A stretch of DNA of 23,376 bases from a virus. Every line of letters starts with the position of its first letter. Positions within the stretch are counted from its first letter, which is position 1. Position numbers and translations under genes: made by a program. Under the pieces are notes generated by a model. That model made no database searches. It was not told the DNA's origin and saw only the letters and a list, made by a program, of their open reading frames with translations. Shown piece by piece: positions 1 through 13,733 of this stretch. The stretch is from positions 1-23,376 of the IMG/VR virus record IMGVR_UViG_3300042892_002440. One strand, given 5' to 3'.

Positions 1-104
1 CCAATACTGATAGCCCAAGCCAGTACTTCCATGACAAACCTAAAAGGGTGGGTCTTGTAATCACTTTTGATCCATTCAAATATGCCGGTTAAAATGTTGT
101 TCAT
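1..104 (-). CDS. Partial small phage protein, N-terminal 34 residues
   Basis: The gene starts at the ATG at 104 and runs off the left edge, so only about 34 residues are visible. The first residues (MNNILTGIFEWIKSDYKTHP) are followed by a hydrophobic stretch (VMEVLAWAISI) that probably begins a membrane segment. The start overlaps the uvdE stop codon in an ATGA junction, which indicates translational coupling and supports this start. The sequence resembles short one-helix membrane proteins seen in T4-like aquatic phages; this is recognition by eye, not a search. Function unknown. Confidence 0.7.
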   Translation of the reverse strand, partial: MNNILTGIFEWIKSDYKTHPFRFVMEVLAWAISI

Positions 105-1132: not shown

Positions 1133-1138
1133 AAGTAT

Positions 1139-1167
1139 ATTATACAAGATTTAGACAGTTGTGTCAA
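1139..1167 (-). promoter_or_regulatory. Perfect sigma-70 promoter driving uvsE
   Basis: On the minus strand, TTGACA (1167-1162), a 17-nt spacer and TATAAT (1144-1139) give a full consensus match. The predicted start point, seven bases below the -10 box, is the A of the uvsE ATG at 1132. The promoter lies in the divergent gap shared with the plus-strand gene at 1192. Confidence 0.88.
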
Positions 1168-1191
1168 GTCTTTTTGAAAAAGGTAAACATT

Positions 1192-1533
1192 ATGAAATAT
1201 TGGATTGAATCTAAATGGGCAGTGGGATCAGTTTTTCCAGACACTATTGAAGACGTTCATGCTATTGGCAAACAAAATGGCACAGATGACGCAGTGTTAG
1301 CAAAAATTTACGAGGCAGCAGATGTACAAAAGTTATTTTCTCTTGACCCGCATCCACTTGATTATCTTACAAAAAATAGCGATGGTACTACACTTTTGGG
1401 ATTTTATCAAACCGACAAAGAAAAAGCTCTTGAATGGGTAGCATGGCGAAACCAAAATCTAAGCCCACTACAAATTCATTGTGTTCTTAAAGAAGAAGCC
1501 GAACCCGGTGATCCAGGATACGTTGCTCCTTGA
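1192..1533 (+). CDS. Hypothetical protein, 113 aa
   Basis: One of three plus-strand genes. I place the start at the ATG at 1192 (MKYWIESKWAVGSVF) because AAAAAGG lies eight bases upstream; an upstream GTG at 1159 has no such site and falls in the uvsE promoter. The protein is acidic to neutral with no membrane segment, and contains GTDDAVLAKIYEAADVQKLF and a C-terminal LKEEAEPGDPGYVAP. I recognise no domain. It is divergent from uvsE and convergent with the amidinotransferase gene, ending six bases from that gene's stop. No terminator hairpin is visible in the six-base gap. Confidence 0.7.
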   Translation: MKYWIESKWAVGSVFPDTIEDVHAIGKQNGTDDAVLAKIYEAADVQKLFSLDPHPLDYLTKNSDGTTLLGFYQTDKEKALEWVAWRNQNLSPLQIHCVLKEEAEPGDPGYVAP

Positions 1534-1539
1534 CACAAA

Positions 1540-2457
1540 TCAGTTGGTTTGCCGCACAAGGTCTAACGTAACACAATGGAAGCCGCCTCCTAGAGTGCGG
1601 CTTTGTCGCAACCGCATGGGAATCACTTCAAATTGGTAACTTTTTAGGGTTTTGATCAATTCGGTTTGGTCAGCGTCACAGATCACAGTGTGTGGATCTA
1701 CCACCAACATGTTCATGGCAATCCATTTTGATGCATACGGATAACGGTAAAAATCCTGAGCAACCACATCGTTGATCCAAATTTTATGCCATCCATCAAA
1801 CACTCGGGGCACAGTATCAAACCCAACTCTCTGACCGTTTAGCATGACTAGGCCTTCGCGTAGTGGCACAATGGTAGAATCAATGTGTACCCCGGCGTAA
1901 AAATTGCACAGTTCTATTGTGACATCTGGAAACTGGTCGCACAGCCAACTGTAGGCTTTTCGATTACCCGACGCTGATTCCAAGTACAACATCTTGTCGC
2001 CCAATCTGCACACATTAGCAGCATCCAAAGTCATGCCTTCGTTGCGTGGCATGAATCGATAATGGTCAGCTGAATCCACAATGTCGTGATAGCACTGCAA
2101 TTCCATATCTCTACAGGGATACATCATGGCAGGATCCACTATAGTAGACCCATACACTAGAAATCTATCACGTGGGCAGTAGTTGTACATGCCATCATGA
2201 GTTTGGAAGTTAAGCGGATCTGGACGTACAACTTCTACTCCTAGACTGATCAGTGTGGTTGCTAGGATATCCAGATCTTCATTGGCTTCGTCGATTATTC
2301 TTTGTGGTACAGGCCCACTTGGCACAGGTGTTTCTTTCCAAGTGGTCTTTTCTGACTCTCGTGAAAACACAGGATCGTTCACAGGCCAGTTGGCGTGAGT
2401 GGCACTGCCTACTACAATTTTTTTAAGTGGGCTCCACTCGTCAACAGTTGATATCAT
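1540..2457 (-). CDS. Amidinotransferase (glycine/inosamine amidinotransferase-like)
   Basis: A 305-residue member of the guanidino-group-modifying enzyme fold that includes arginine:glycine amidinotransferase and StrB-type amidinotransferases, which move the amidino group of arginine to an amine through a covalent Cys intermediate. The visible catalytic set is Asp145 in LDAANV, His191 in GVHIDST and Cys295 in the glycine loop GGGFHCVTLD, in the expected order. The N-terminal LKKIVVGSA also fits. The length is shorter than eukaryotic AGAT (which has a leader) and close to bacterial and phage forms. The start overlaps the stop of the upstream hydroxylase-like gene (ATGA), so the two are coupled. 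The acceptor amine is unknown; the neighbouring sugar-nucleotide dehydrogenase suggests an amino-sugar or another small amine, which is inference. Arginine deiminase-like hydrolase activity is a less likely alternative. Confidence 0.85.
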   Translation of the reverse strand: MISTVDEWSPLKKIVVGSATHANWPVNDPVFSRESEKTTWKETPVPSGPVPQRIIDEANEDLDILATTLISLGVEVVRPDPLNFQTHDGMYNYCPRDRFLVYGSTIVDPAMMYPCRDMELQCYHDIVDSADHYRFMPRNEGMTLDAANVCRLGDKMLYLESASGNRKAYSWLCDQFPDVTIELCNFYAGVHIDSTIVPLREGLVMLNGQRVGFDTVPRVFDGWHKIWINDVVAQDFYRYPYASKWIAMNMLVVDPHTVICDADQTELIKTLKSYQFEVIPMRLRQSRTLGGGFHCVTLDLVRQTN

Positions 2458-2972
2458 ATGTGTCCAGTAATTTGTAATGTGTAGCGGTCCTCAAGACCAA
2501 TGTTGGCTGCCATATGTGGCAAATCGTACACCCATTCAACGGTGTCTCCAGCTTTCCAGTCAACATAAGGCCGGCCGTCTACTTCAAGATAATGACCTGG
2601 TTTCCAATCTTCCAACAACAACAAAGCACGGCGAATTGAAGTTTCTTGTCCTTGAAGATTGAAAAGTTCAACATAGCGTTTGTACAAATCTTGATGCACT
2701 GGCATCACTGTGTCAGTACTCATGCGATAAAACGCCAGGCCAATATCTTTCCACCCCTGAGCCTCGTATATTTTAATAAACTTGTCAGCCCAGGTAGGAA
2801 GTCGATGCCGCATGTCACACAGGCCCCCACAAATTTTGCTGGTGTATCCTTGTGCAGTCCAAAGAGCTACACTTGTTGGATCATTAAACGGTTCTTGGAT
2901 GTAGTCCAATGTTTTGAATTCATCATCCCAAAACCGGTCAATGTGATATTTAAAAACCACGTGTGTTGCCAT
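2454..2972 (-). CDS. Aspartyl/asparaginyl beta-hydroxylase-like Fe/2-oxoglutarate dioxygenase
   Basis: A 172-residue protein with the layout of the cupin-fold Fe(II)/2-oxoglutarate hydroxylases. An HxD motif is at 93-95 (VMPVHQDLY), a distal His is at 153 (DLPHMAANIG) and Arg163 (DRYTLQITG) could bind 2-oxoglutarate. RRALLLLEDWKPGHYLEVDG between them matches the strand-rich core. I use the ATG at 2972 (MATHVVFKYH) rather than one 35 codons upstream, because those upstream codons lie inside the preceding gene and do not look like part of this fold. The start overlaps the end of the dehydrogenase gene by 23 bases, and the stop overlaps the amidinotransferase start (ATGA), so the three genes form one translation-coupled unit. 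The substrate could be a protein side chain or a small molecule; nothing here decides. Confidence 0.68.
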   Translation of the reverse strand: MATHVVFKYHIDRFWDDEFKTLDYIQEPFNDPTSVALWTAQGYTSKICGGLCDMRHRLPTWADKFIKIYEAQGWKDIGLAFYRMSTDTVMPVHQDLYKRYVELFNLQGQETSIRRALLLLEDWKPGHYLEVDGRPYVDWKAGDTVEWVYDLPHMAANIGLEDRYTLQITGHI

Positions 2973-4191
2973 AATGAACAACTTCAACGTTGTCAGTTGA
3001 TTTAAGTTTGCGCCAAGGATCAACAATAATACTGCCCGGCACGATTGTGCAATATGCTTGAGTATCTGCTTGATCACCTATGTATTCATACGTGATCTTG
3101 CGATTGTGTGCCCACAAAAATACTGCTGGTTCGTCTACACTATCAACCACATGAGTTTTGTCATCGGCCAGTGGATCAACATAAACTACCTTGCGGCCTT
3201 CTTGTTCAATGTAGTGTCCTACCAGCGTTGAATAGCTGCCAATGCAATACTCCACATCAGGCTTGTATGCTTTGCCGTGAATCACAATGGGCAAGTTATT
3301 GTTCATCACACTCAAGTCTAACAAAAACATAGCTAAGTTTTTGGCTTGTACTTCTCTGGCATGCATAACTGTGTCAAACAAGTCGTAACCAATGTTGTAT
3401 TCTTTTGCCAACCAACGCAATGCAATGTTGTCACGTGGATGACAGGCACCTGCGTCGCCCATGCCTGCTGTCATGTATTTAGGTCCCATGATGCGCATGG
3501 TTGAACGTGCTAGTGCATCTGTAACCACATCCACATTGATATTGCCAATGCGTAATGCAAAGTCCTGAATCATGTTGACCAATCCAACTTTGGCTGATAT
3601 AAAAGTGTTATAAAAAATCTTAATAGCTTCACATTCATCCCAGGTACCAACTTCATAGCGTGGGTCGTTTTTCATGATGGTCTTGTACAAATCAATCAAC
3701 TCGCCGGCCACCCCAGTGAGTGATCCATCTTCTGTGCCAATGATTACCATCTCAGGATTGGCCATATCCCACTTGACTGATCCCATGGCAATCAAATAAG
3801 GATTGTAGCAAAACTGATGCTTGGCGTCAATCAATGGCACAAATTTCTTGCGGGTGGTACCTGGCAGTACTGTGCTTATTAACACAATTTTTTTACTGCT
3901 TTTGGCATATTTGTTCACATTGTGAATGGCATCAATCACAGCGTCATGTCCAAAGTCTCGAGGCTCCATGTGACTAGATGGTACTGACCCGTCATATCCT
4001 TCTGCATGCGGGGTTGGCACTGCAATGAAGATCCATTCACTGTTGTCCACAAGTTCTTCAATGCCACAGACTTTTACCGAGTCGCTGGTTCGTGGGTAAA
4101 TATCATACCCCCACACTTGATGTTTCTCAGCCATAACTTCGGCACAGTCCAACCCAAGTTTTCCAATCCCAATAAAACCAATTTTTGCCAT
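2950..4191 (-). CDS. UDP-glucose/GDP-mannose 6-dehydrogenase-like protein
   Basis: A 413-residue protein built like nucleotide-sugar 6-dehydrogenases, which oxidise the sugar C6 to a uronic acid with NAD+. The N-terminal Rossmann domain has GIGKLG with Gly8, Gly10 and Gly13 (MAKIGFIGIGKLG). AVPTP at 57-61 and STVLPGTTRK near 106 fit the family. The catalytic Cys is probably Cys250 in GDAGACHPRDNIAL, and EAIKIFYNTFISAKVG at 188-203 fits the Lys/Asn helix. GKAYKPDVEY at 306-315 starts the C-terminal domain. One oddity: the usual NPEF with its catalytic Glu reads NPYLIAMG at 130-137. The start at 4191 has AAAGGAA just upstream and a TATAAT-type promoter. The gene heads a coupled three-gene unit. 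Confidence 0.82.
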   Translation of the reverse strand: MAKIGFIGIGKLGLDCAEVMAEKHQVWGYDIYPRTSDSVKVCGIEELVDNSEWIFIAVPTPHAEGYDGSVPSSHMEPRDFGHDAVIDAIHNVNKYAKSSKKIVLISTVLPGTTRKKFVPLIDAKHQFCYNPYLIAMGSVKWDMANPEMVIIGTEDGSLTGVAGELIDLYKTIMKNDPRYEVGTWDECEAIKIFYNTFISAKVGLVNMIQDFALRIGNINVDVVTDALARSTMRIMGPKYMTAGMGDAGACHPRDNIALRWLAKEYNIGYDLFDTVMHAREVQAKNLAMFLLDLSVMNNNLPIVIHGKAYKPDVEYCIGSYSTLVGHYIEQEGRKVVYVDPLADDKTHVVDSVDEPAVFLWAHNRKITYEYIGDQADTQAYCTIVPGSIIVDPWRKLKSTDNVEVVHYGNTRGF

Positions 4192-5443
4192 GAGCGTTCC
4201 TTTAGATAGATTATACAATTTTTTGCAAGACATTTGCAACCATGATGTTTTAATTTATCGTTATTTTCCACATGGATCAAAAAAAATGCAGGATTGCAAA
4301 TTGCTTGCAATCGACTTGAATATGACCAAGATTGATCGGTTCAACAAAATGTATGTGTTTTGCCATGATCAGGAATTGCTAAATTCAAAAGATTTTCCAA
4401 AAGTGCCAAGTGGCATTACAGATATTCCATTGAATGCATATCGATTACTTTCGGCTAACACAATGAACAAATATGATCGCATAATTGTTGTGCATTCAGA
4501 ACTCAACAGTCCTGAAGTAACTTGGTTTGAAGAAAACGGAGCAGTCACAGTTTATTGGTGGAGTCATGCTGTGATTGCTCGAGACTGGTTTCGATATGCC
4601 AACATAGATCCCAAGTTCAACAGTCAGTCTTGTGAGTTGCAGCAAGATTTTTTAATTTATAATCGAGCCTGGCAAGGAACCCGAGAGTATCGATTGAAGT
4701 TTGCCGAGCTTGTGGTCAGTCACAATCTAACTCAACACTGTCGCATGGGGTTCAACCCAATAGACGAACAACACTATCATCAGCACCAATTTAGTAATTC
4801 TGCATTTGAAATTAACAACCACAAATTAGAAAACCACTTTCCAACAAACAATACCAACAGTTCAGCCAGTGCTGATTACTGCTCTCAAGATTATTTAGAA
4901 ACTGGACTTGAAATAGTATTAGAAACAATAGTTGATGATCAACGATGGCATCTAACTGAAAAAACTCTGCGGCCAATTGCTTGTGGGCATCCTTTTATGA
5001 TCTTAGGTACGCCAGGCATTCTTAGATATCTACGCAAATATGGATTCAAAACATTTTCACCGTTGATTGACGAAAGCTACGATGACATGCAAGATCCGGT
5101 AGAAAGGATGCAGGCTATCATTGATGTTATGAAACGTATTGCTGCCATGAGCACCGCTGACAAACTGGTGTTGTATCAACAGATGCAGGCAATTTGCAGC
5201 CACAACAAAGATAGATTTTTTAGCGATGAATTTTTAACCTGTGTCATCGAAGAGTTCAAACAAAACTTTGAGCAAGCGGCCGAACAAATGAAAAAATATC
5301 AAACTGGAGCATATTTTAAGTTGTTTTTACAAACATTCAAAAACACAACAAGTCGACTGCCTGTACCTAGACAAGAGATTGTAAAAATGTGGCAAATATT
5401 ACACAATGCAAATTGTCAACCTATGCTGCCAGAGAAGATTTAA
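4190..5443 (+). CDS. Conserved phage protein, possible glycosyltransferase-like
   Basis: A 417-residue plus-strand protein. The most recognisable part is at 255-298: LTEKTLRPIACGHPFMILGT followed by LRKYGFKTF and IDESYD. I have seen this kind of sequence in T4-like phage proteins and in poorly characterised glycosyltransferase-like families, where a TEK/RP segment precedes a PF-G motif; this is recall, not a search. The N-terminal half holds DRIIVVHSEL (96-105) and VYWWSHA (121-127). No membrane segment is evident. The start is uncertain. The ATG at 4190 gives a natural-looking N terminus (MSVPLDRLYNFLQD) but has no Shine-Dalgarno and overlaps the start codon of the divergent dehydrogenase gene; the next in-frame ATG is about 32 codons on. 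It ends in a 23-bp convergent overlap with the next gene. A role in sugar transfer is inference from the neighbour. Confidence 0.7.
   Translation: MSVPLDRLYNFLQDICNHDVLIYRYFPHGSKKMQDCKLLAIDLNMTKIDRFNKMYVFCHDQELLNSKDFPKVPSGITDIPLNAYRLLSANTMNKYDRIIVVHSELNSPEVTWFEENGAVTVYWWSHAVIARDWFRYANIDPKFNSQSCELQQDFLIYNRAWQGTREYRLKFAELVVSHNLTQHCRMGFNPIDEQHYHQHQFSNSAFEINNHKLENHFPTNNTNSSASADYCSQDYLETGLEIVLETIVDDQRWHLTEKTLRPIACGHPFMILGTPGILRYLRKYGFKTFSPLIDESYDDMQDPVERMQAIIDVMKRIAAMSTADKLVLYQQMQAICSHNKDRFFSDEFLTCVIEEFKQNFEQAAEQMKKYQTGAYFKLFLQTFKNTTSRLPVPRQEIVKMWQILHNANCQPMLPEKI
4210..4239 (-). promoter_or_regulatory. Probable sigma-70 promoter for the dehydrogenase operon
   Basis: On the minus strand TATAAT is at 4215-4210, with TTGCAA (4239-4234) as a four-of-six -35 match across an 18-nt spacer. 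The predicted start near 4203 gives a leader of about 12 nt that begins at the AAAGGAA Shine-Dalgarno. The -35 match is imperfect, so this is less sure than the other promoters listed. Confidence 0.45.
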
Positions 5444-5786
5444 TTAGAATTGGAGACCAATCTGTGCCTGGCGGATTGGCAATATATTCATCAACACGTT
5501 CGGACAAATGTTGATAGAAAGTGTCCATTTCACCATTCCAACAGCCTGTTAGCGAATGCAATGCGCTACGACAGAATTCCCAGTTTTGTAGTTGATACTG
5601 TTCTATTAATTGTTGATGTATATGTTTATTAGACTCTAATCGCGGAAACTCTGCCAACGGCAAGTTGTCAATCACACAATAGGTCTTTACCAATTGCTCC
5701 GATGGCATTATCTTGAATGTGTCTAGTTCTAAAACAGTGTGAGCACTGGATACAGTGTTAATAGCGTCGCCAAATATTATGTTCAT
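5421..5786 (-). CDS. Hypothetical protein, 121 aa
   Basis: A single minus-strand gene between two plus-strand genes. AAAAGGAAAT shortly before the ATG at 5786 supports the start. The protein begins MNIIFGDAINTVSSAHTVLE, is soluble-looking, and has a central YCVIDNLPLAEFPRLES and a C-terminal IANPPGTDWSPI. The mix of residues and the good ribosome site argue for a real gene, but I recognise no family. Its 3' end overlaps the end of the upstream plus-strand gene by 23 bases in convergent orientation, so the two transcripts would be antisense at their tails. It is divergent from the phosphoesterase, with only 25 bp between the two starts. Confidence 0.65.
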   Translation of the reverse strand: MNIIFGDAINTVSSAHTVLELDTFKIMPSEQLVKTYCVIDNLPLAEFPRLESNKHIHQQLIEQYQLQNWEFCRSALHSLTGCWNGEMDTFYQHLSERVDEYIANPPGTDWSPILIKSSLAA

Positions 5787-5811
5787 TGTTATTTCCTTTT
5801 AAATATGTATC

Positions 5812-6603
5812 ATGCAACTTGCCTTTGATTTAATTTCTGATTTACACATTAGCACCTGGGAAGGTGAATTTGACTGGACCAATCGAGCCACTAGCCCACA
5901 CTGTATAGTGCTGGGCGATGTGTGTGAAGATCGAGCATCCTTGTACAAAACACTCGAGCATCTTGGAAAGTGTTATCAAGCTGTGTTTTATGTTGACGGT
6001 AATGATGAACATGTGGATTTTTTTAATGATCTTGCATTCAGTTATGAAGAAATGAGTCAACGAATTGGTCAAATTCCCAATGTGGTGTATCTACAAGACA
6101 ACGTGGTAGTGATCAATGGTGTGGCTATTTTGGGCACAAATGGTTGGTGGGCATTTGACTTTGACAACACAATCGATCCTGAAGCAGTAAGAGATTGGTG
6201 GTGCGAAAAATATAACTTCACGCACGATAACTATAACGCCATACGTCGGGCCAGCACCACTGATGCCAACTACTTGATAGCCAGTGTAAAAAAACTACAA
6301 ACTCATAGAGACGTAAAGAAAATTGTCATAGCCACTCACACTGTGCCCATGCCTGCATTGATCGCACACGACATTGATTTAGCAGACAAACTCAAATTCA
6401 ACACCATGGGCAACAGGCACATGCTGAATGCACTAGACGTGGATACCGAACACAAAATTGATACATGGTGTTTTGGACACTATCACGGCAAAGTTGACCA
6501 GTATCGAGATGGTGTTCGTTATGTTAACAATTGTCGTGGTCGCGGGCAAACACCGTGGTCGCAGTATGTGTATCATCCACTGCGTGTGGTTGTTGATTAT
6601 TAA
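5812..6603 (+). CDS. Calcineurin-like metallophosphoesterase
   Basis: A 263-residue protein with the full dimetal phosphoesterase motif set in order: DLH at 10-12, GDV at 35-37, GNDEH at 63-67 (the GNHE position, with Asp-Glu in place of His-Glu), ATHTVP with His176, and GHYHG at 222-226. The family hydrolyses phosphomono- or diesters, including nucleotides, nucleic acids and phosphoproteins, with two metal ions. The substrate is not readable here. No Shine-Dalgarno precedes the ATG at 5812, and only 25 bp separate it from the divergent gene, so the mRNA leader must be short or the promoter must lie inside the neighbour. The stop codon overlaps the clpS stop on the other strand. Confidence 0.88.
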   Translation: MQLAFDLISDLHISTWEGEFDWTNRATSPHCIVLGDVCEDRASLYKTLEHLGKCYQAVFYVDGNDEHVDFFNDLAFSYEEMSQRIGQIPNVVYLQDNVVVINGVAILGTNGWWAFDFDNTIDPEAVRDWWCEKYNFTHDNYNAIRRASTTDANYLIASVKKLQTHRDVKKIVIATHTVPMPALIAHDIDLADKLKFNTMGNRHMLNALDVDTEHKIDTWCFGHYHGKVDQYRDGVRYVNNCRGRGQTPWSQYVYHPLRVVVDY

Positions 6604-6908
6604 GTTGTTTCGGGTTCCAGTTTGATCTGGAGCGGATAGTTTTGTGCTCTAGCACTCACAGTAACTTCAACACCTTTTTGTTCGGCAATTTCGTAAGGCA
6701 ACACTGCCACACAAGCAGAACCTTCTTCGTGAATGTCAATGGTGATTTGTTCTGCGGTTTCGGGAGTGTATTCAAAATATTCAACCAGACTTTCGACCAC
6801 AAACTCCATGGAAGTTGCGTTGTCGTTCAAGTAAACCACGCGAAACATAGGTGGCTCTTTTACAGCCTCTGATGGTTTGATTCGTGTGCGGGTATCGCTC
6901 TGTGCCAT
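6600..6908 (-). CDS. clpS: ClpS, N-degron adaptor for Clp protease
   Basis: A 102-residue protein matching ClpS, the adaptor that delivers proteins with N-degrons to ClpAP (ClpCP in some bacteria). The core reads FRVVYLNDNATSMEFVVESL and then IDIHEEGSA, with PYEIAEQKG and a final PLQIKLE. By alignment to E. coli ClpS from memory, Asp35, Thr38, Met40 and His66 of the N-degron pocket are kept, while Asp36 is replaced by Asn. AAGGA lies six bases before the ATG. The gene follows hsp20 after a strong hairpin. No ClpA or ClpP lies in this window, so it would have to work with host ClpA/ClpP or use the pocket for another purpose. Confidence 0.92.
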   Translation of the reverse strand: MAQSDTRTRIKPSEAVKEPPMFRVVYLNDNATSMEFVVESLVEYFEYTPETAEQITIDIHEEGSACVAVLPYEIAEQKGVEVTVSARAQNYPLQIKLEPETT

Positions 6909-6934
6909 TTCTATTCCTTGCTTTGCTATACAAT

Positions 6935-6960
6935 CAGTGGCAGCAGGATTGCTGCCACTG
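6935..6960 (-). terminator. Strong hairpin between hsp20 and clpS
   Basis: A perfect 11-bp inverted repeat (arms 6935-6945 and 6950-6960) with a four-base loop, just past the hsp20 stop. On the minus strand it is followed by ATTGTATAGC, not a clear U-run, so it may act as a weak terminator or as an mRNA 3'-end stabiliser or processing site rather than a classic intrinsic terminator. Arms are GC-rich in an AT-rich setting. Confidence 0.6.
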
Positions 6961-6976
6961 TATTTACACTATTATA

Positions 6977-7429
6977 TTAGGAAGTGTAGGTGATCGCAAT
7001 GGTCTTTGGCTTGGCATCTTCGGGCACTTCACGTTTCAAGTAAACGCTTAGGATACCAAGTTCAAGGTGAGCATTGCTGATTTCCACATGATCCGCAAGC
7101 TGGAATTCACGACGGAAATCTCTGTTGCTGATACCTTTGTGCAGGTAGTTTGGCACAATCTTTTCGCTGTCAGACTGATACTCTTTGCCTTCAATGATCA
7201 AGAACTTTTTGTCCTTGGTAACTGAAAGATTATCAAGCCCAAAACCAGCCACAGCAAGACTAATCATGTACTCATCTTCATTGATTTGTACAATATTGTA
7301 AGGTGGATAGTTTGTGCTAGATTGTTGGGCACTCACACGCATGAGTTCATCAAACATGTTATCGAAACCGATACCAAATTTGTGAATTGCGGGAATGTCG
7401 AAAGAGCGAAGGGCGAGAGTTTTTGTCAT
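6977..7429 (-). CDS. Hsp20-family small heat shock protein (IbpA-like)
   Basis: A 150-residue alpha-crystallin-type chaperone that holds unfolding proteins to prevent aggregation. The alpha-crystallin domain spans about 42-138 and includes YMISLAVAGFGLDNLSVT, REFQLADHVEI and the characteristic LGILSVYLKRE. The C-terminal IXI anchor is Ile144-Ala-Ile146. The N-terminal LRSFDIPAIHKFGIGFDNMF resembles IbpA-type proteins. AAAGGAG lies seven bases before the ATG. The gene has its own -10-like site and a 5' leader with a hairpin, set off from the S21/75-aa genes upstream. Small heat shock proteins are known in T4-like phages of aquatic hosts; a role in virion protein folding or the host stress response is inferred. 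Confidence 0.95.
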   Translation of the reverse strand: MTKTLALRSFDIPAIHKFGIGFDNMFDELMRVSAQQSSTNYPPYNIVQINEDEYMISLAVAGFGLDNLSVTKDKKFLIIEGKEYQSDSEKIVPNYLHKGISNRDFRREFQLADHVEISNAHLELGILSVYLKREVPEDAKPKTIAITYTS

Positions 7430-7463
7430 TTGTTTTCTCCTTTATATAAGCAAGATGACTTGT

Positions 7464-7491
7464 AATGTAGCCCCACTATGGGCACTACATT
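7464..7491 (-). promoter_or_regulatory. Hairpin in the hsp20 5' leader
   Basis: AATGTAG and CTACATT arms (7 bp), extended by CCC/GGG with a small bulge, sit immediately below the predicted hsp20 transcription start. The Shine-Dalgarno lies outside the stem, about 20 bases downstream. It could stabilise the mRNA 5' end or take part in temperature or translation control; no classic ROSE or fourU pairing with the Shine-Dalgarno is seen. Confidence 0.45.
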
Positions 7492-7493
7492 GT

Positions 7494-7504
7494 TATTTAT
7501 TATA
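7494..7504 (-). promoter_or_regulatory. Putative hsp20 promoter (TATAAT overlapping AATAAATA)
   Basis: On the minus strand TATAAT (7504-7499) overlaps AATAAATA (7501-7494). The first fits a sigma-70 -10 box but has no good -35 (ATAAAA at the right distance). The second fits the NATAAATA form of the late promoter described for some marine T4-like phages. Which one is used cannot be decided here. Confidence 0.35.
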
Positions 7505-7516
7505 CACGAAGAAAAA

Positions 7517-7744
7517 CTATATTTTATTATTTAGGTCAGTTACCAGGCGGTAAGTTGTCCATTCTGGATGGTCTGGGTGTGGCACCCACGTCATTGCAAA
7601 TAGTGTATAAGATTCGTCTGAATCAAACGTAACCCGCAAGGTGTATTTGAATACTTTAGTACGGTATTTGATGTTGTATTTTACTGCCCATGCATTCAGT
7701 TTGGTTCGAACTAAGTCTGAGGACAACCGAAATTCAATGTACAT
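7517..7744 (-). CDS. Hypothetical protein, 75 aa
   Basis: A short soluble protein beginning MYIEFRLSSDLVRTKLNAWA, with alternating charged and aromatic residues (KYRTKVFKYTLRVTF) that suggest a small beta-rich fold and a C-terminal TYRLVTDLNNKI. Its ATG shares one base with the S21 stop (TGATG), so it is probably translated by re-initiation after S21. No family recognised. The tight coupling to clpX and S21 is the main clue to its role. Confidence 0.6.
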   Translation of the reverse strand: MYIEFRLSSDLVRTKLNAWAVKYNIKYRTKVFKYTLRVTFDSDESYTLFAMTWVPHPDHPEWTTYRLVTDLNNKI

Positions 7745-7968
7745 CAGTACATTTTTTTAGGTAGTGCTTGTTCGGCCAGTTGTCTGCGCAAGCGATTTTT
7801 GGCAGCACTGCGTTTGAGTTTGCGAGCAGTGGTGGGCTTGGTGTAGAATTCACGATCACGCAGATCGTTAAGAATGCCTGATGTTTGAATTTTTTTCTTG
7901 AATTTACGCAATGCTTTTTCTACATTGCCGTCAGCGACTATTACCGACCTTCCGTGCAATTTGCTCAT
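7744..7968 (-). CDS. rpsU: Phage-encoded ribosomal protein bS21
   Basis: A 74-residue homologue of bacterial small-subunit protein bS21. It shows the family pattern: [35 protein letters not shown] and a basic Ala/Arg/Lys tail (KRSAAKNRLRRQLAEQ). In bacteria bS21 sits on the 30S platform near the anti-Shine-Dalgarno and helps base pairing at initiation. Copies carried by phages of aquatic bacteria have been reported and are thought to replace or add to the host protein and bias initiation. The gene start lies 38 bases inside the end of clpX in another frame, and its stop shares a base with the next ATG. The length equals full-size bacterial bS21. Confidence 0.93.
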   Translation of the reverse strand: MSKLHGRSVIVADGNVEKALRKFKKKIQTSGILNDLRDREFYTKPTTARKLKRSAAKNRLRRQLAEQALPKKMY

Positions 7969-9163
7969 TGGGTGCCTTTAATTCTATAGGAGTATTTACC
8001 AAGTCATCAGTGATTTTTACTTGGTCAATTCCTTGTTCTTTGTAATGTGCCAAGTTGAACATGTGTGGCAGTAGCACACGTTCTAGTTCACTATGAAGGC
8101 CACGTGCTCCTGTTTTGTTTTTTAGAGTGTTCTTGGCCACTTGTTCTAGTGCTGTTTTTTCAAAATCTAAAGTGACTTGGTCTTGCACAAACAACCACTT
8201 GTACTGATCTACATAACTGTGTTTGATTTCTGTTAGGATAGATATTAAATCTTTTAGTGCAAGTTCGTTTAGTGCAACCCAACTTGGAAAACGTCCCACA
8301 AACTCCGGGATCATACCAAATTTAACTAGGTCGTCAGGAGTTACTTGATCAAGGTCGCCTGGTCGGTCTACTGACACATCAGCTTGAAATCCAATTGACG
8401 TGCCGCGAATACGGTTCTTCACAATGTTATCTAGACCTACAAATGCACCGCCAGCAATAAACAAAATATTGGTGGTGTCAATTTCTACAGTTTCACCATT
8501 GGGGTGTTTGCGTCCACCAGTGGGTGTGATTCTGCACTTGGTACCTTCTACCAACTTGAGCAAGGCTTGCTGTACGCCTTCGCCTGATACATCTCGTGTG
8601 ATGCTCTGACTTTCTGAACGTCGACTGACCTTGTCTATTTCGTCCACAAACACAATACCCTGTTGTGTTTTATCAATGTCGTTGCCTGACGCAGTGTACA
8701 GGCGCGAAATCAAACTTTCCACATCATCGCCTACATATCCTGCTTCGGTTAAAGATGTAGCATCAGCAATCACAAAAGGCACGTCTAAGTATCTAGCCAC
8801 TGAACGGGCCAACAACGTTTTGCCCGACCCTGTGGGGCCTAACATGAGAATGTTGACTTTTTCAATTTCGGTATTTTTGTCCTGATTGCGTATGCGCTTG
8901 TAGTGATTGGCAATGGCCACTGCCAACACCATCTTGGCTCGATCTTGCCCGATAACATACTGATCAAGATGTTTTTGAATTAGCCTTGGATCAAGAGAGA
9001 CATGTTCTGTAGTTTTGACTGTGGGTTCATCTACCAGCAAAGTCTCACACAATTCCACACATTCATTGCATATTGCAACGTCTTCTCCCACAATGAGTTT
9101 GATCACTGCGTCTTTGTGCTTGTTGCAAAAACTACAGCTATCAGGATTTTCAGTTAATTTCAT
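7931..9163 (-). CDS. clpX: ClpX, AAA+ unfoldase of ClpXP
   Basis: A 410-residue, apparently intact ClpX. The N-terminal zinc domain has Cys10, Cys13, Cys31 and Cys34. Walker A is GPTGSGKT at 109-116, the pore loop GYVG is at 142-145 and Walker B VFVDEID is at 171-177. The RKH substrate loop is at 218-220, the ClpP-docking IGF loop at 257-259, the arginine-finger segment PEFVGRFP at 286-293 and sensor-2 GARG at 352-355 (followed by His where E. coli has Arg). The kept IGF loop implies it can dock ClpP, presumably the host's, as none is encoded here. The zinc domain implies adaptor or substrate binding. The start overlaps the upstream membrane-protein stop (ATGA), and the 3' end overlaps S21 by 38 bases. 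It could redirect host proteolysis or remodel phage complexes. Confidence 0.96.
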
Positions 9164-10737
9164 ATTTTGGTTTCAGGGTTGAGCCGTGCGGCTATTTGTT
9201 CTTGTTCTAAATCACTCAGCAAATCTGGATCATACTCACCTGAGTCAATTTTGGCGATGAGATAATCAATGTATGCCGTGTCATAAGTGTAATTGTCTGA
9301 ATGGTCTTTGTCAATATGTATCCAACTCTTTCCGTTGTATTTGTACAACCGACTGGGTATGGCATCTACTTTTAAATATGTATCACCTTTGTTGGGCTGG
9401 TCAGGAAATTCTGTACCAAATGCATGTGTGGTTGCTGGGGGTTCTTGCCAGGGCAAATGATCAATTTGCCCACGAGCCAACTTGGTTCGCTGTGCTTTGA
9501 TAGTGTCGTCTGGATTGGCTGCTTTCCAAGCCTTGACGGCAGCATCGGGGTCTACCTCTGATGTTTCAATTTCTTCTACGGGCAATGGCTGATTAAAAAT
9601 AATTTCTACTTGTTTATCGGTATCGTTAAATGGCCCATCTATTACGTCACACGCTTTATTAGGACAAAATAGTCCAATGCCCGGTGCATTTAATAGAATA
9701 GTACCACACTTGTGGCAAGGTATTGTGTCCTCTGGAGTAGTGGCATCCTCTGCTTTATACACCATAGGCTTGAGATCTTTGAAGTGATCAAAAGGCTTGG
9801 CAAGATAAGGATAACGTTCGTTCCATGGTCGTTCGTCTTCTTTGCCGCCAAACATCCAACCTACTGGATGTGGATCTTTTGAGGGCTCGGCACTGGCCTG
9901 AATTTGTTCTATTTGTTCGTCAGTGAGTGGCCCATCATCAGGTTCGTACCGGGGTTCGTCGTGTACAAATCCGCCTGTGCCTTGTCGTGCCCATTCAAAC
10001 TGTTTGTTGGCAGCTAGGATAAGTGTAAGAGCTAGTGGATCAAACACCAGCACAATCATTATGATCATCCAACGCACTGCACGTTCTAACAGATTGTCAT
10101 CAGGATTGTCCCCGTACAGCAAGGCTGCAATGTATTTTATCGGTCCAACTTCCGCATCGACCTTGCGTACTTCAGCGGCAATAGGCGCACGGGCATCGTT
10201 AAGTTCCGCAATAGACTTTTGCGACTGTGATATTTCAGCTTGAAGTCTAGCACGTTCTTTCTGCTGGGCTCTTCGCATAGCCACAGCTTTTTCGGCACCC
10301 GTTTCTGTTGTTGAGCGGCCCAATACTTGGTCCACGCCCTCATCCATCTGTTTAAGTGCCCGACGGTTTGCTTCAATATTCTCTTTTTCGGTCTTGATCT
10401 TTTCATCATATATTGCTATCTTGCTGACAACATCGCCTGACACTAGGCTTTGATCTGAATGTGCTTTTGACAGGTATCCAAAAATACCCATACTGGTCAG
10501 TATCATTAAGAATGCTATGGCTGGTATCAAATACAGTTTGAACACAATGCCGGCACGTTTCCAGTTGTTGTGCAACCACACTGTGGCAACAATTTTGCCC
10601 AGTTCTAGTGAACCGCCCATGATGATCACCGGCAATACAGCCGCTGAAAATATAGCAGTAAGGCCGGCCACTGAGTACCAGGCAGCTACGGCACTTAAGA
10701 GTAATGCGGTGGCGAGAATTCCAAATCCAAATATCAT
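9160..10737 (-). CDS. Large membrane protein with coiled coil and zinc-ribbon-like motif
   Basis: A 525-residue protein. Hydrophobic segments at about 3-22, 24-46 and 66-89 are followed by a charged helical region (about 100-200, coiled-coil-like, rich in Lys, Glu, Gln and Arg), then a fourth membrane segment at about 222-243. A long soluble tail follows, with a Cys4 set (Cys341, Cys344, Cys358, Cys363) in CHKCG and CPNKAC that looks like a zinc ribbon. The layout recalls DUF4407-type proteins. From memory, similar N termini are common in aquatic T4-like phages, without known function. No good Shine-Dalgarno precedes the ATG at 10737, which lies five bases past the stop of the upstream gene, so coupling is likely. 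The tail ends overlapping clpX (ATGA). Confidence 0.82.
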   Translation of the reverse strand: MIFGFGILATALLLSAVAAWYSVAGLTAIFSAAVLPVIIMGGSLELGKIVATVWLHNNWKRAGIVFKLYLIPAIAFLMILTSMGIFGYLSKAHSDQSLVSGDVVSKIAIYDEKIKTEKENIEANRRALKQMDEGVDQVLGRSTTETGAEKAVAMRRAQQKERARLQAEISQSQKSIAELNDARAPIAAEVRKVDAEVGPIKYIAALLYGDNPDDNLLERAVRWMIIMIVLVFDPLALTLILAANKQFEWARQGTGGFVHDEPRYEPDDGPLTDEQIEQIQASAEPSKDPHPVGWMFGGKEDERPWNERYPYLAKPFDHFKDLKPMVYKAEDATTPEDTIPCHKCGTILLNAPGIGLFCPNKACDVIDGPFNDTDKQVEIIFNQPLPVEEIETSEVDPDAAVKAWKAANPDDTIKAQRTKLARGQIDHLPWQEPPATTHAFGTEFPDQPNKGDTYLKVDAIPSRLYKYNGKSWIHIDKDHSDNYTYDTAYIDYLIAKIDSGEYDPDLLSDLEQEQIAARLNPETKI

Positions 10738-10742
10738 AAAAA

Positions 10743-11063
10743 TTATTTACCAGGCGGTGGCATGGCAATCACCGCATGCTTTACTGCCACCCATGTGGCA
10801 AAGGTCTGATCTGGCACTTCAAACCAAATTAGAACAGGTTGCAATGAAACTCCCCACAATGAGGTGTGTTCTAATCTGCGTTTTACCCTGCTTTGAGTGC
10901 GCCAGTTTTTTCCAAACATTGCCCTAGCTTCCTTCATAACTGCATACCATTCTTCAACGGAGTGCAATCGAAACCAAATACGGTGCATGACCAAAGGCGT
11001 TTCTTTAAGCGAGTCAAGTGACTCAGGGATACTCAACGCAGAGCCCTCAATTTTGACAGTCAT
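10743..11063 (-). CDS. Hypothetical protein, 106 aa
   Basis: I place the start at the ATG at 11063 (MTVKIEGSALSIPESLDSLK) because GGAAAGG lies six bases upstream. The frame stays open for a further 56 codons toward the promoter, but those codons include rare-looking Arg codons and no ribosome site, and look more like structured leader RNA. The protein has RIWFRLHSVEEWYAVMKEAR and a basic patch (KNWRTQSRVKRRLEH), then a hydrophobic LIWFEVPDQTFATWVAVKHA, and ends in PPPGK. No family recognised. It is the first gene below a perfect promoter and leads into the membrane protein/clpX/S21 genes. Confidence 0.6.
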   Translation of the reverse strand: MTVKIEGSALSIPESLDSLKETPLVMHRIWFRLHSVEEWYAVMKEARAMFGKNWRTQSRVKRRLEHTSLWGVSLQPVLIWFEVPDQTFATWVAVKHAVIAMPPPGK

Positions 11064-11246
11064 TTCTAACCTTTCCAGATTTATCCTCTCGGCATACTCC
11101 CGGGGTATCAGCCCAGTTTTGATCCTAAGATCGAGGTCCTTGTCGCAACCTACAGGATTTAAGTCTAACTTGCCACGGTCCAAGCAGGCCCAGGTTATCG
11201 ATTCACCCCGCCTCACCATTAGACTACCCAATCTCTTTGATCATGC
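11064..11246 (-). other. 183-nt structured leader with a tRNA D-arm-like segment
   Basis: This is the predicted untranslated leader between a perfect promoter (start near 11246) and the Shine-Dalgarno of the 106-aa gene. It looks more GC-rich than its surroundings. TAGTCTAATGGTGAGGC (11228 down to 11212) pairs GTCT with AGGC like a tRNA D arm, but no complete cloverleaf follows. Further local stems are readable: AGGTTG/CAA-ACCT with a bulge, GATC-TTAG-GATC, and GGG/CCC around CTGATA. A tiny ORF, MIKEIG-stop, begins two bases below the predicted start. It could be a decayed tRNA, a riboregulator or an attenuator; I cannot assign it to a known RNA family. Confidence 0.4.
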
Positions 11247-11252
11247 ACAGTA

Positions 11253-11281
11253 ATTATAACAACACTCGAGGTGGCTGTCAA
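11253..11281 (-). promoter_or_regulatory. Perfect sigma-70 promoter above the clpX/S21 region
   Basis: TTGACA (11281-11276), 17-nt spacer, TATAAT (11258-11253). The TGA inside the -35 hexamer is the stop codon of the upstream gene. This promoter can drive the 106-aa gene, the membrane protein, clpX, S21 and the 75-aa gene. Confidence 0.88.
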
Positions 11282-11739
11282 GTGTTTTGTTTTTGTTTGA
11301 CTAAATTGCACACAGTTTGAAACTGCTCGTATGCATCACGCACACTAGGATGGGCCATGAGTTTGTCTGCTTCCGCAATCATGGCATTAACTGCCGCATC
11401 GGCATGATCTCTAGCACAGCCCAAGCTCAGCGTAGCCAAGTCATCACCAAACTCTTTGGCCAGCTTCTCCCAGGCTTTTTTTTGTCCGGGAGTAATGGGA
11501 GTTCTCTGTGGTTTCATTTCGCTGGCTTTTCTAAGAGAATCACAAATAGCATCCTCGGCCACACGTCCTGCCGCAATCATGGCAGCATAGTTGGGATCAA
11601 TGTTGTACCGGCGGCTTTGTCCCCCTGGGTAGCACATCACAATGTGTGTGCCCCGAGAGAAACTGTCCAAGTACTCACTGTCATATTCACTCACAGGCAC
11701 ATACCTGCGTCCCTTTTTTTCGTAGTAAATCTTTTTCAT
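11278..11739 (-). CDS. Hypothetical protein, 153 aa
   Basis: Starts at the ATG at 11739 (MKKIYYEKKGRRYVPVSEYD), which overlaps the lipoprotein stop (ATGA) and has GGAG six bases upstream; a start four codons earlier is less likely. A mixed N-terminal part contains FSRGTHIVMCYPGGQSRRYN. A middle section (TPITPGQKKAWEKLAKEFGD) is followed by a helical C terminus with HPSVRDAYEQFQTVCNL. The last segment resembles the end of the protein at 13075-13500, so the two may be distant relatives or share a binding helix. The stop codon is part of the next promoter's -35 box. The N-terminal pattern recurs in aquatic phage proteins of unknown function, by recall. Confidence 0.72.
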   Translation of the reverse strand: MKKIYYEKKGRRYVPVSEYDSEYLDSFSRGTHIVMCYPGGQSRRYNIDPNYAAMIAAGRVAEDAICDSLRKASEMKPQRTPITPGQKKAWEKLAKEFGDDLATLSLGCARDHADAAVNAMIAEADKLMAHPSVRDAYEQFQTVCNLVKQKQNT

Positions 11740-13055
11740 TGCAAACTCCATTGTGTTCGAGCATAACCAACATAAACTTTGTTGGCAACTGCGCTGGTAT
11801 ACGCAAAGTTCCAGGTGCCATTTACTTTTACAGGAATCATAATGCCCAGTCTATTAGATGGCGCACCTGTTACTGTTTGAAAATTAGTCAATAATTGGTC
11901 AAAATCTGTTTGTTTTGTTTGAACGAAAGATGTGGTAGTTGAGTTTGTCCAGAGTTGGTTACTATTACGACCCCAATTGTCCCACCCCATTAACCAAAGA
12001 TCCAACCGACCGTCATTGTTGTAATCAACCAAGAGCGGCGTGTAACTGCTCAATACCGCTGTGCTCCATCCACTCATTGCTGAACTAGTTACATCATCAA
12101 ACTGCCAATTGCCGCGATTCAAATAAATTTGCACACGACTTTCTGGAGTAGTAGTAACACCTTCTTTGGCACTTATCACAATGATGTCTTGCCACCCATC
12201 GTTATTCAAATCGCCCACTGTGCAACTAACATCGTGACTGAGTTCTGTTGCTGTTGTATTGCCAATGTCAAACCAAGGTGTGGGCAATATAGCCATCCGA
12301 GTAGGTGCAAGTGTGTTATCCAGTTTAAAAATATAAGTGTCTCGGAGTGGTAATGTGCCATTCATAGACAAGTCAGTTGCAACAACTTGTGTGGTTCCTG
12401 AACGATCAAAATCTCCTGCACACACTCCACTGCCTGCAATATACTCAGCATGTCCTTGTTGCCAGTCTTTGCGAGTGTTAAATGTAAACTGTCCAGTGCC
12501 ATCATTGGTCCATATATGACCTTGACTGTTTATAACGTCAATAAACCCATCATTGTTTACATCGGCTGCAACACTGCCATGGCTCCATGTAGAACCTGGA
12601 ACATTTACTTGTTGATGGCTTTGTCCTGGACGGCTGATAAACGCTGTACTTGCATTATTTAAAGTCCCAGGTATATCAGTAAACCCAGCAAAGAAGATGT
12701 CATCAACACCATCACGATTAAAGTCAGCCACAACAGGATAATTTACTGAGATACTATGATTGCCACCGAGGATATCTACTGTGGCATCAGAGACTGTGCT
12801 ATCGGACAAGCGGTATATTTTTACTGGTGGTGCTGTGGTATTTCTAATATACCAGCCGCTAAGTATCACGTACTTGGCACCATCAGTTGAAAAATTACCA
12901 GTAACAAGGCTTGGAATAAAGGTAGCAGGAGTAGAAATAAATCCAGCAGTAATAGCAACGCCATCGACCACTTGAGAAGTTGTTCCAGTTCCAGCTCCCC
13001 CACCACCACATCCTGTTAGAGCCACTGCTAGTGCAGGGATTACAAGTTTCCACAT
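11736..13055 (-). CDS. FG-GAP/VCBS-repeat lipoprotein
   Basis: A 439-residue protein with a lipoprotein signal: a short positive start (MWKLVIP), a hydrophobic core and the lipobox LTGC at about 13-16, followed by a Gly/Thr linker. The mature part contains at least five Asp-rich, calcium-loop-like repeats of FG-GAP/VCBS type: DFNRDGVDDIFFAG, DVNNDGFIDVI, a degenerate DFDRSGTTQVV, DLNNDGWQDIIV and DYNNDGRLDLWLMG. Such repeats build beta-propellers in secreted and surface proteins. AGGAG precedes the ATG. If expressed, the protein would be exported by the host and anchored in the cell envelope, so superinfection exclusion, receptor masking or envelope modification are possible roles; this is inference. 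A moron-like origin is possible, though the gene is tightly coupled (ATGA) to the next phage gene. Confidence 0.86.
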   Translation of the reverse strand: MWKLVIPALAVALTGCGGGGAGTGTTSQVVDGVAITAGFISTPATFIPSLVTGNFSTDGAKYVILSGWYIRNTTAPPVKIYRLSDSTVSDATVDILGGNHSISVNYPVVADFNRDGVDDIFFAGFTDIPGTLNNASTAFISRPGQSHQQVNVPGSTWSHGSVAADVNNDGFIDVINSQGHIWTNDGTGQFTFNTRKDWQQGHAEYIAGSGVCAGDFDRSGTTQVVATDLSMNGTLPLRDTYIFKLDNTLAPTRMAILPTPWFDIGNTTATELSHDVSCTVGDLNNDGWQDIIVISAKEGVTTTPESRVQIYLNRGNWQFDDVTSSAMSGWSTAVLSSYTPLLVDYNNDGRLDLWLMGWDNWGRNSNQLWTNSTTTSFVQTKQTDFDQLLTNFQTVTGAPSNRLGIMIPVKVNGTWNFAYTSAVANKVYVGYARTQWSLQ

Positions 13056-13074
13056 GGGAATCTCCTAAGTTAAA

Positions 13075-13500
13075 TTACGAATAAGTTCGATCCATTTTGA
13101 CATTGGTCAATCCAGCAACCATTTGGAATTTGTCCCAGGCATCTTTCACTGCCGGGCGAGATTCAAGTTCACTGTCCGGCAATACTGTTTCCAACCAGTA
13201 TTCTTGCCGGCGACTTGGGTGTGCGCCAAACTTGCGTGGCTGGTGTAGTCGACCAGTTTCCCAAAGTTCAATGCTGACACTGCGGAATTTATCTTCATCT
13301 TCTTTACTGTTGAAATCATAGGCACTCCATTCTGCTCGGCTACCGCCACCGAAGCAGTATCCATCCCAGATGCCTGCCCACTGCTCGTCATCTCTGGGAT
13401 CAAAGTCTGTGCGAGTGATCAGCACCAATACATCGTTCATGTCCACACGACCTTCCACAATGTCGCGAACGCAACGGCTGTAGCTTAGACCAATTTTCAT
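13075..13500 (-). CDS. Hypothetical protein, 141 aa
   Basis: Begins MKIGLSYSRCVRDIVEGRVD, a start I recall from conserved phage proteins of unknown function. The ATG at 13500 is preceded by a G-rich GGGGGAT, two bases after the upstream stop. Middle: TRTDFDPRDDEQWAGIWDGY, with a glycine turn and many aromatics. The C-terminal helix PAVKDAWDKFQMVAGL resembles the end of the 153-aa protein at 11278-11739. No membrane segment. It sits between two small genes and the lipoprotein in one probable operon. Confidence 0.72.
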   Translation of the reverse strand: MKIGLSYSRCVRDIVEGRVDMNDVLVLITRTDFDPRDDEQWAGIWDGYCFGGGSRAEWSAYDFNSKEDEDKFRSVSIELWETGRLHQPRKFGAHPSRRQEYWLETVLPDSELESRPAVKDAWDKFQMVAGLTNVKMDRTYS

Positions 13501-13502
13501 GT

Positions 13503-13733
13503 TTATCCCCCGTAATACTTAATAACTGTAGTCAATGCTTCGACCATGCGAGTGTTGATTGCTACATCTTCAGGGTGCAACCAGTATCCGCCTGGATTGG
13601 TATCCGTTTTAGGATTTTTCTTCCAGTCACTCAGTTCTTTTTTAAGATAGTCTCTTTGTTCTTTAAGAGCGAGCACAGTGATTCGATCGGCTGCTTCGCC
13701 GTCAAGCGTAATAGGACCAATTCGTTTACTCAT
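13503..13733 (-). CDS. Hypothetical protein, 76 aa
   Basis: A small soluble protein, MSKRIGPITLDGEAADRITV followed by LKEQRDYLKKELSDWKKNP, a probable helix with coiled-coil character, then NPGGYWLHPEDVAINTRMVE. Its ATG overlaps the ligase stop (ATGA), so it is coupled to the ligase. It could be a small DNA-metabolism accessory, but nothing in the sequence proves that. Confidence 0.68.
   Translation of the reverse strand: MSKRIGPITLDGEAADRITVLALKEQRDYLKKELSDWKKNPKTDTNPGGYWLHPEDVAINTRMVEALTTVIKYYGG

Follow-up and report, generated by a model that had tools for sequence, protein, structure and literature searches.

This report deals with a gene cluster for protein quality control and translation on a virus record of 23,376 bases (IMGVR_UViG_3300042892_002440; hereafter the window, meaning the whole stretch of DNA that was analysed, in which no ends were found). 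On its minus strand, from position 10737 down to 6600, lie orf525, clpX, bS21, orf75, hsp20, and clpS, with a structured mRNA leader ahead of hsp20 (Table 1). The cluster is conserved in large phages, and in it a Clp set probably owned by the phage stands beside a chaperone gene whose leader may be stress-responsive. The orf525 stop overlaps the clpX start, clpX and bS21 overlap by 38 nt, and bS21 and orf75 by one base; gaps of 87 and 68 nt lie ahead of hsp20 and clpS, respectively.

Table 1. Features of the gene cluster and of the hsp20 leader in the window
Feature	Position	Strand	Description
orf525	9160..10737	-	525-residue membrane protein; four transmembrane helices by hydropathy, long coiled coil
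clpX	7931..9163	-	410 residues, AAA+ unfoldase: zinc domain, pore loops, IGF ClpP-docking loop
bS21 (rpsU)	7744..7968	-	PF01165, 1.2e-18
orf75	7517..7744	-	75-residue open reading frame between bS21 and hsp20; window-like group only
AATAAATA	7494..7501	-	resemblance to T4-type late promoter, ahead of hsp20
ROSE-like mRNA leader of hsp20	7424..7495	-	match of model R1, 71.1 bits
Upstream hairpin of hsp20 leader	7464..7491	-	covarying stem, GCC...GGG core
CTTGCTT	7448..7454	-	faces the Shine-Dalgarno sequence of hsp20, one bulged G
Shine-Dalgarno AAAGGAG of hsp20	7437..7443	-	
hsp20	6977..7429	-	IbpA-like small heat-shock protein, C-terminal IXI; PF00011, 5e-13
TGTAAATA and perfect 11-bp hairpin	6935..6968	-	between hsp20 and clpS; hairpin z -3.3
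clpS	6600..6908	-	N-degron adaptor; pocket and ClpA-facing residues conserved; PF02617, 1e-24

The initial annotation had placed ClpX, bS21, Hsp20, and ClpS on the minus strand at 6600-9163, and family searches confirmed all four. ClpX reaches 522 bits with its NCBIfam model (cut-off 359), bS21 passes the Ribosomal_S21 models of Pfam (67 bits vs 27) and NCBIfam (64.3 vs 28.95), and ClpS meets the Pfam cut-off (86.6 vs 23). The best NCBIfam model for Hsp20 is that of IbpA, with 117 bits, under the cut-off of 212. The motifs named at the time were likewise found, namely the four zinc Cys, the RKH loop, the GYVG pore loop, and the IGF docking loop of ClpX, and the C-terminal anchor of Hsp20, which reads I-A-I; the Walker A and B motifs, arginine finger, and sensor 2 of ClpX are also present. 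Additional to that annotation are orf75 and orf525, neither of which matches a Pfam family, and the RNA leader of hsp20.

Conservation of the Cluster across Phages

Related loci were collected from IMG/VR as the best 80 of 331 matches to the window ClpX, the best 80 of at least 589 to ClpS, 65 matches to the ClpX of Pseudomonas phage PA5oct, the best 80 of 98 to that of Sinorhizobium phage Phosso, and the best 80 of 407 to bS21. Taking only the best matches per query makes the sample lean toward each query's close relatives. Clustering of ClpX at 90% gave 134 clusters, and the representatives that had at least 8 kb of downstream sequence comprise 89 loci, of which 27 form group A (window-like), 30 group B (from the PA5oct scan), and 32 group C (from the Phosso scan); the remaining clusters and two cultured references stand outside this count. 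Mean ClpX identity between the groups is 45-46%. One record taken at first for a phage relative, CAKLQH020000005.1 (Acinetobacter phage MD-2021a, our L160), was rejected for its bacterial-looking tig-clpP-clpX order, and its ClpX was omitted from the column, cluster, and tree counts. Records of this type, apparently bacterial chromosome, pollute searches for phage ClpX and ClpS.

At least two of the genes bS21, hsp20, and clpS lie downstream of clpX on the same strand in 79/89 representatives. Within 10 kb, clpS is found in 79/89 (27/27 in A, 23/30 in B, and 29/32 in C), bS21 in 76/89 (21/27, 28/30, and 27/32), and hsp20 in 70/89 (27/27, 18/30, and 25/32). Loci with all three keep the order bS21-hsp20-clpS in 59 of 60 cases (A 21/21, B 17/17, and C 21/22). 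The gene distances of the four cluster genes correlate over 77 loci with r values of 0.71-0.91, above all 300 within-group label permutations, as expected of co-inheritance.

As a control, the same loci were searched throughout for thirty window genes, with names of open reading frames (ORFs) outside the cluster assigned by reading; the comparison is biased against genes lying over 10 kb from clpX, beyond the reach of the loci. None of the 25 window genes outside the cluster (orf525 apart) exceeds 9/30 in group B or 14/32 in group C. The best of them are DNA ligase (7/30 and 14/32) and a 97-residue ORF (9/30 and 1/32), and 18 of the 25 score zero in B and 16 in C. Even within the cluster, orf75 is confined to group A (17/27, vs 0/30 in B and 0/32 in C). 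A UDP-glucose dehydrogenase-like gene downstream of the cluster (2950-4239) is present in 24/27 window-like loci and in none of groups B and C.

The sole further gene of the window that mostly travels with the four is orf525, whose family lies directly or shortly upstream of clpX in 26/27, 29/30, and 29/32 of the A, B, and C loci and is present in 124/132 representatives overall. A fold search with its predicted model (mean predicted local distance difference test score 78.5) returned no PDB match at E <0.001. We rejected the idea of a ClpX-specific partner, as members of the family are also found in phages with no ClpX annotated nearby (one of these records is poorly annotated). They sit near cell-wall hydrolase or holin genes in Pelagibacter phage Mosig and Flavobacterium phage immuto.

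Group C has a slot of 450-650 nt between clpX and bS21 in 30/34 loci; the two examples that were scored both hold translation initiation factor IF-3 there (137 and 126 bits vs a cut-off of 60). Phosso has its cluster genes spread over 17 kb, with IF-3 next to clpX, and Salicola phage SCTP-2 shows the order topoisomerase, orf525 relative, clpX, bS21, clpS. The general order is orf525 - clpX - (IF-3 in one group) - bS21 - (dnaK in some) - hsp20 - clpS. The idea of one module, which had been made to depend on the co-occurrence of clpX, rpsU, hsp20, and clpS in related phages, gains strong support from these counts: its genes travel together more than other window genes do, including in the cultured phages PA5oct and Paride.

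The Leader of hsp20

The leader of hsp20 is an RNA element that is conserved, covaries, and is built like the short ROSE elements. In the window, the order upstream of the gene is hairpin - CUUGCUUA - UAU - AAAGGAG - AUG. The motif UYGC[U/G], which in its form UYGCU facing the Shine-Dalgarno sequence we take to be the ROSE consensus, stands 3-9 nt before the Shine-Dalgarno sequence in 92/97 hsp20 leaders of representative loci (A 38/40, B 23/23, C 29/32, and both cultured phages). Among other genes of the same loci that bear a Shine-Dalgarno sequence it does so in 29/777, a control set from which 1034 genes without a recognisable one were excluded. Four of the five misses (L157, L267, L279, and L300) carry the element before the gene that precedes hsp20, and the fifth (L380) is a variant still found by R1, our model of the leader. 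In an alignment of 54 leaders, 93.7% of the cells of helix 1 are paired, compared to 46-65% when the helix is slid, and double-sided pair changes number 81; shuffles give 26.0 and slid positions no more than 22. Helix 2, formed by UYGCU and the Shine-Dalgarno sequence, is paired in 96.9% of cells, and its CUUGCUU stretch is nearly invariant in letters, beyond what pairing needs.

A scan of 92 sources (1.69 Mb, training sequences included) with R1 gave 94 matches at E <=1, many of which, the window leader among them, are training sequences and match by construction. Matches at E <0.1 that do not precede hsp20 lie ahead of dnaK in seven loci (ORFs of 617-628 residues), ahead of a small ORF (L267, L279, L300, and the end of L157), and ahead of an 8-codon frame (L380); the three with E 0.26-0.85 (L230, L231, and L266) are probably chance matches. 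Two of the leader-preceded DnaK proteins score 998 and 991 bits (NCBIfam cut-off 648), and HSP70 was found in 6/46 records. Over 45 records, 35 have an R1 match at E <=0.01, and at this level the genomes of PA5oct and Phosso each have a single match, that of the hsp20 leader. An extra weak match (25-34 bits) is present in 13 window-like records. In the seven that were read, it lies ahead of an ORF of 88-91 residues, a few kb before a second clpP gene. Four such small ORFs were tested and one resembles phasin, at E 0.028 and far under the cut-off, so that the label phasin-like is a guess.

Beyond these loci, tblastn located hsp20 in 508 phage records, mostly cyanophages. Six of seven cyanophage-type leaders match R1 with 29.6-42.8 bits (S-SM2, S-PM2, MED4-213, S-SRM01, P-RSM4, and C48C1), the leader of S-TIM5 gives no R1 match, and that of Paride scores 29.5 bits. 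CUCGCU replaces CUUGCU in five of the six matching cyanophage-type leaders, as in E. coli ibpA and ibpB. The best match in 698 kb of bacterial decoy DNA has 15.5 bits. The Rfam family ROSE_3 gives sub-cut-off matches in 7/18 relatives' leaders (E <=0.5) and in 3/8 of the cyanophage and Paride set (E <=1). The one Rfam family to align with the window's leader is the orphan freshwater-2 (RF02980), whose match at 7427-7507 is end to end, with 23.1 bits vs a cut-off of 49.9; freshwater-2 may itself be a phage chaperone leader.

The sequence AATAAATA at 7494-7501 was compared with what we take to be the T4-type late promoter consensus. A late-promoter-like box with at most one mismatch occurs within 100 nt upstream of hsp20 in 32/40 window-like loci, with 8.0 expected from mononucleotide shuffles, and the related TGTAAATA box before clpS is kept in 25/40. 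Over the whole window, T4-type late promoters give 27 matches vs 20.5 expected, and 6 of 100 shuffles are as high.

ClpP and ClpA-Type Proteins of the Relatives

The initial annotation had also stated that ClpP and ClpA are absent. This holds for the 23-kb window only. Contig G043 (40,218 bases), which is 99.98% identical to positions 1-19163 of the window and among the 13 records with the extra R1 match, carries two ClpP genes 11 and 13 kb past the window's left end. The first has the Ser-His-Asp triad in the motifs GQAASMG, HQPLGG, and MERD, and reaches 312.7 bits with NF001368 (cut-off 249) and 297.1 with TIGR00493 (under its 308.6); its 191-residue paralogue belongs to PF00574. We further searched 44 large records, chosen and not exhaustive, comprising 42 IMG/VR contigs of 103-578 kb as well as PA5oct and Phosso. 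ClpP is encoded in 41/44, with two or more matches in 21/44, a Clp_N protein (ClpA type) in 29/44, ClpS in 42/44, and IF-3 in 11/44. Of 37 further records, mostly short, 12 have ClpP. A ClpX without ClpP is therefore rejected as a fragment effect.

The Ser motif and the His are kept in 15/15 canonical ClpP ORFs, the His as HQP in 10. Two Walker A motifs are present in 17 of 18 Clp_N ORFs, and an IGF or LGF tripeptide lies in the second half of all 18; for the four that were scored, the best NCBIfam model is ClpA, over the full length and with 791-848 bits. In PA5oct, DnaJ lies directly ahead of ClpA. One locus (L394; G021:C1:212000-216600) has a Clp_N ORF of 1111 residues, about 350 longer than its relatives and with no recognisable second Walker A, which possibly contains an intein in the second ATPase domain. 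In the PA5oct record (MK797984), the entries for ClpP (EST35_0272) and FtsH (EST35_0266) bear the note "ESI-MS/MS", unlike those for ClpX and ClpS; both proteins may have been detected in virions.

With ClpP in 41 and Clp_N proteins in 29 of the 44 large records, and with two ClpPs in G043, we take ClpX and ClpS to be parts of a phage Clp set. The pairing of an unfoldase with an adaptor for a different one had been called unusual, and is better read as two parts of this phage-borne set. The earlier suggestion that phage ClpX and ClpS redirect the host ClpP pool is not supported, given that most of the relatives examined bring their own ClpP, although phage ClpX may dock on the host enzyme as well.

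Functional Residues of ClpX and ClpS

Nearly all of 204 ClpX sequences retain the zinc Cys, Walker B, arginine finger, and sensor 2. The docking loop reads IGF in 89/93 sequences of group A (MGF in 4) and in 55/57 of C, and varies in group B (n=54: 28 IGF, 14 IGI, 5 MGF, 4 VGF, 1 MGI, and 1 IGL). Groups A and B have GYVG as their pore loop, and 31/57 sequences of C have GYAG. Since 87/93 sequences of A retain the RKH loop, but just 3/54 of B and 20/57 of C do, substrate handling may differ between the groups. In the tree, a branch with support 99 has all 78 bacterial ClpX, taken from the query's 80 best matches, on one side, and a single old origin of phage ClpX is possible.

For ClpS, N34, D35, T38, V43, and H66 are present in 168/168 sequences, E79 in 165/168, and K84 in 166/168; N34, D35, and H66 are presumably the residues that bind the alpha-amino group, and E79 and K84 those that face ClpA. 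Position D36 is often N (92/168) and M62 often T (122/168), changes that may shift specificity.

A Proposed Phage-Owned Proteostasis Unit

Taken together, the window is best explained as holding part of a cluster, conserved among large phages, that serves protein quality control and translation, with a phage-owned Clp set and a stress-responsive leader, and we give this joint reading a probability of roughly 0.6. Phage ClpX and phage ClpA would work with phage ClpP, and phage ClpS would feed N-degron substrates to phage ClpA, so that the phage would bring a nearly self-sufficient Clp protease. bS21, joined in some phages by IF-3, may adjust initiation on host ribosomes, whereas Hsp20, with DnaK where present, may hold the mass of phage protein made late. 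The leader would keep the Shine-Dalgarno sequence partly closed, translation rising under heat or protein-aggregation stress, and such phages would so carry a small stress response of their own. Going one step further, large T4-type and jumbo phages might own a heat-shock-like regulon, with ROSE-type leaders on Hsp20, DnaK, and a phasin-like protein beside ClpX-ClpA-ClpS-ClpP and translation factors, which would keep infected cells productive under heat or aggregation independently of the host stress response; we put this wider proposal at somewhat less than even odds.

Several observations weigh against the joint reading. The best relative reaches 35.7 bits (E 1.1e-4) with ROSE_3, below the curated cut-off of 43, and the window's own leader has no Rfam ROSE match even at E <=10; because the gathering score is missed, we call the element ROSE-like and not ROSE. 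On E. coli, R1 finds ibpB with 14.3 bits and ibpA not at all. Standard folding at 37 C gives the phage Shine-Dalgarno sequences an accessibility of 0.44 vs 0.46 in shuffles, hence no extra occlusion, and the same folding gives 0.06 vs 0.18 for E. coli ibpA and 0.03 vs 0.16 for ibpB. ROSE elements use non-canonical pairs, according to the excerpts of one paper (PMC4166951). Such pairs, and possibly cooler hosts, are offered for the absent occlusion and not counted as evidence. We regard the hsp20 leader as a candidate thermosensor. On the protein side, 15/44 chosen records have no Clp_N protein and 3/44 no ClpP (the IMG/VR ones among them possibly being fragments), and 12/30 group B loci have no hsp20 within 10 kb downstream of clpX. 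All four Clp_N proteins scored fall below the NCBIfam ClpA equivalog cut-off of 993, hence the name ClpA-type. The window ClpS misses the NCBIfam equivalog cut-offs (best 76.9 vs 149) while meeting that of Pfam, so that we speak of a ClpS-domain protein and claim no equivalence to bacterial ClpS. The attribution of ClpPs to the window's own phage rests on the near-identical G043, and the phage ClpP, in place of the host's, is a predicted docking partner of phage ClpX.

The near-fixed letters of the leader fit a protein-bound operator equally well. Phage Hsp20 might bind its own leader and release it when titrated by aggregates, as E. coli IbpA reportedly does. An IbpA-like Hsp20, folding without extra occlusion, and the invariance of CUUGCUU would all suit such an operator, which we consider possible, if on balance doubtful. 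The element shares its two-hairpin anatomy with the proven short ROSE-like thermometers of Pseudomonas ibpA, as described in the accessible part of that study (PMC3669281), and it also stands ahead of dnaK and small ORFs; moreover, the operator and thermometer modes can coexist. Another account, which we hold to be rather unlikely, sees a late cassette for virion assembly, with ClpX and Hsp20 chaperoning heads and tails, bS21 boosting late translation, and proteolysis being secondary. The late-promoter-like sequences before hsp20 and clpS speak for it, and so do excerpts from the literature in which bS21 is expressed late together with structural genes in other phages (PMC9723584), ClpX may aid assembly (Iyer 2021; PMC7824862), and hsp20 is suggested for capsid scaffolding (PMC3037559). 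The intact catalytic and binding residues of ClpP and ClpS, on the other hand, point to degradation.

That phage ClpX and ClpS act with host ClpP and host ClpA, thus redirecting host proteolysis, seems improbable to us. The conserved IGF loop and ClpA-facing residues of ClpS would allow it, the records that lack ClpP or Clp_N agree with it, and Iyer 2021, in the portion available, proposed ClpS as an adaptor for host ClpAP (PMC7824862); yet most of the relatives examined and G043 encode their own ClpP, and the majority of large records a ClpA-type protein. We find it very unlikely that the genes stand together only through a shared phage ancestor. Correlated gene distances and the position of phage ClpX outside the sampled bacterial ClpX, with an old shared origin possible, would agree with mere descent, but most other window neighbours are gone at the same divergence, and insertions of dnaK, IF-3, and other genes left the order intact.

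If the phage-owned unit holds, with a protease and chaperone control of its own, host proteostasis would be partly replaced and not simply hijacked. A list of odd phage genes becomes one testable unit, present in the laboratory phages PA5oct and Paride. Paride was reported, in the part of the paper at hand, to replicate on deep-dormant P. aeruginosa (PMC10761892). The main text of that paper contains no occurrence of "Clp" or "ribosom", and a link between the cluster and dormancy is a question that can now be asked. Should the leader be general in cyanophages and sense temperature, it would also bear on phage yield in warming waters.

Comparison with Known Systems

The closest cultured counterparts are the Pseudomonas phages PA5oct and Paride (Arenbergviridae), in which clpX and an overlapping bS21 are followed by two ORFs, hsp20, and clpS, all on the same strand; the clpX of Paride is unnamed in its record and was located by tblastn. 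In PA5oct, FtsH comes further on after clpS, and ClpP and ClpA lie 10.6 and 23.9 kb from the clpX start. Both phages differ from the window in that no orf525 was found and the small ORFs are others, and the ClpX of PA5oct is 40% identical to that of the window. A second QueD-like ORF lies inside the PA5oct cluster between bS21 and hsp20 (L159 9751-10218).

Clp sets are known from other large phages as well. Excerpted reports describe seven Clp proteins in Agrobacterium phage Atu_ph07, including ClpX, ClpA, ClpP-type, and ClpS (PMC6102473), Clp proteins with clpX beside IF-3 in Sinorhizobium phage AP-J-162 (PMC11242549), and separate mentions of ClpS, ClpP, and ClpX from jumbo phages (PMC7824862). 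Atu_ph07, AP-J-162, and Phosso thus share the Clp set or the ClpX-IF-3 neighbourhood, the genes of Phosso being more scattered, and the excerpts name no ordered cluster or RNA leader. Chen et al. 2022 listed, within ten genes of bS21 in 900 bS21 phages, Hsp20 (127) and two Clp proteases (50 and 47); in their 47 genomes bS21 lies among head genes, and the accessible text reports neither gene order, ClpS, nor a leader (PMC9723584). No description of the ordered clpX-bS21-hsp20-clpS cluster was found in the published work examined, much of it available in part.

As for the leader, the ROSE-like thermometers of Pseudomonas ibpA are, in the excerpted description, roughly 60 nt long and precede a small heat-shock gene; they fold into two hairpins, and heating opens the second while the first remains intact (PMC3669281). 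The phage element differs from ROSE in occurring in phages, in preceding dnaK and a small ORF too, and in scoring below the ROSE_3 cut-off, and its thermosensing is putative. Phages do have RNA thermometers, as excerpts on lambda cIII and SPbeta blyA (fourU) show, with other structures and on other genes (PMC10586365, PMC4166951), and a 2023 paper counted, in its available text, only one described before its own (PMC10586365). Among the papers listed in the literature searches, no title or excerpt concerned a ROSE-type leader in phages, which is weak evidence of novelty, as subscription journals were thinly covered. All in all, Clp sets and bS21-Hsp20-Clp neighbourhoods are already published, whereas the ROSE-like leader on phage chaperone genes appears to be new.

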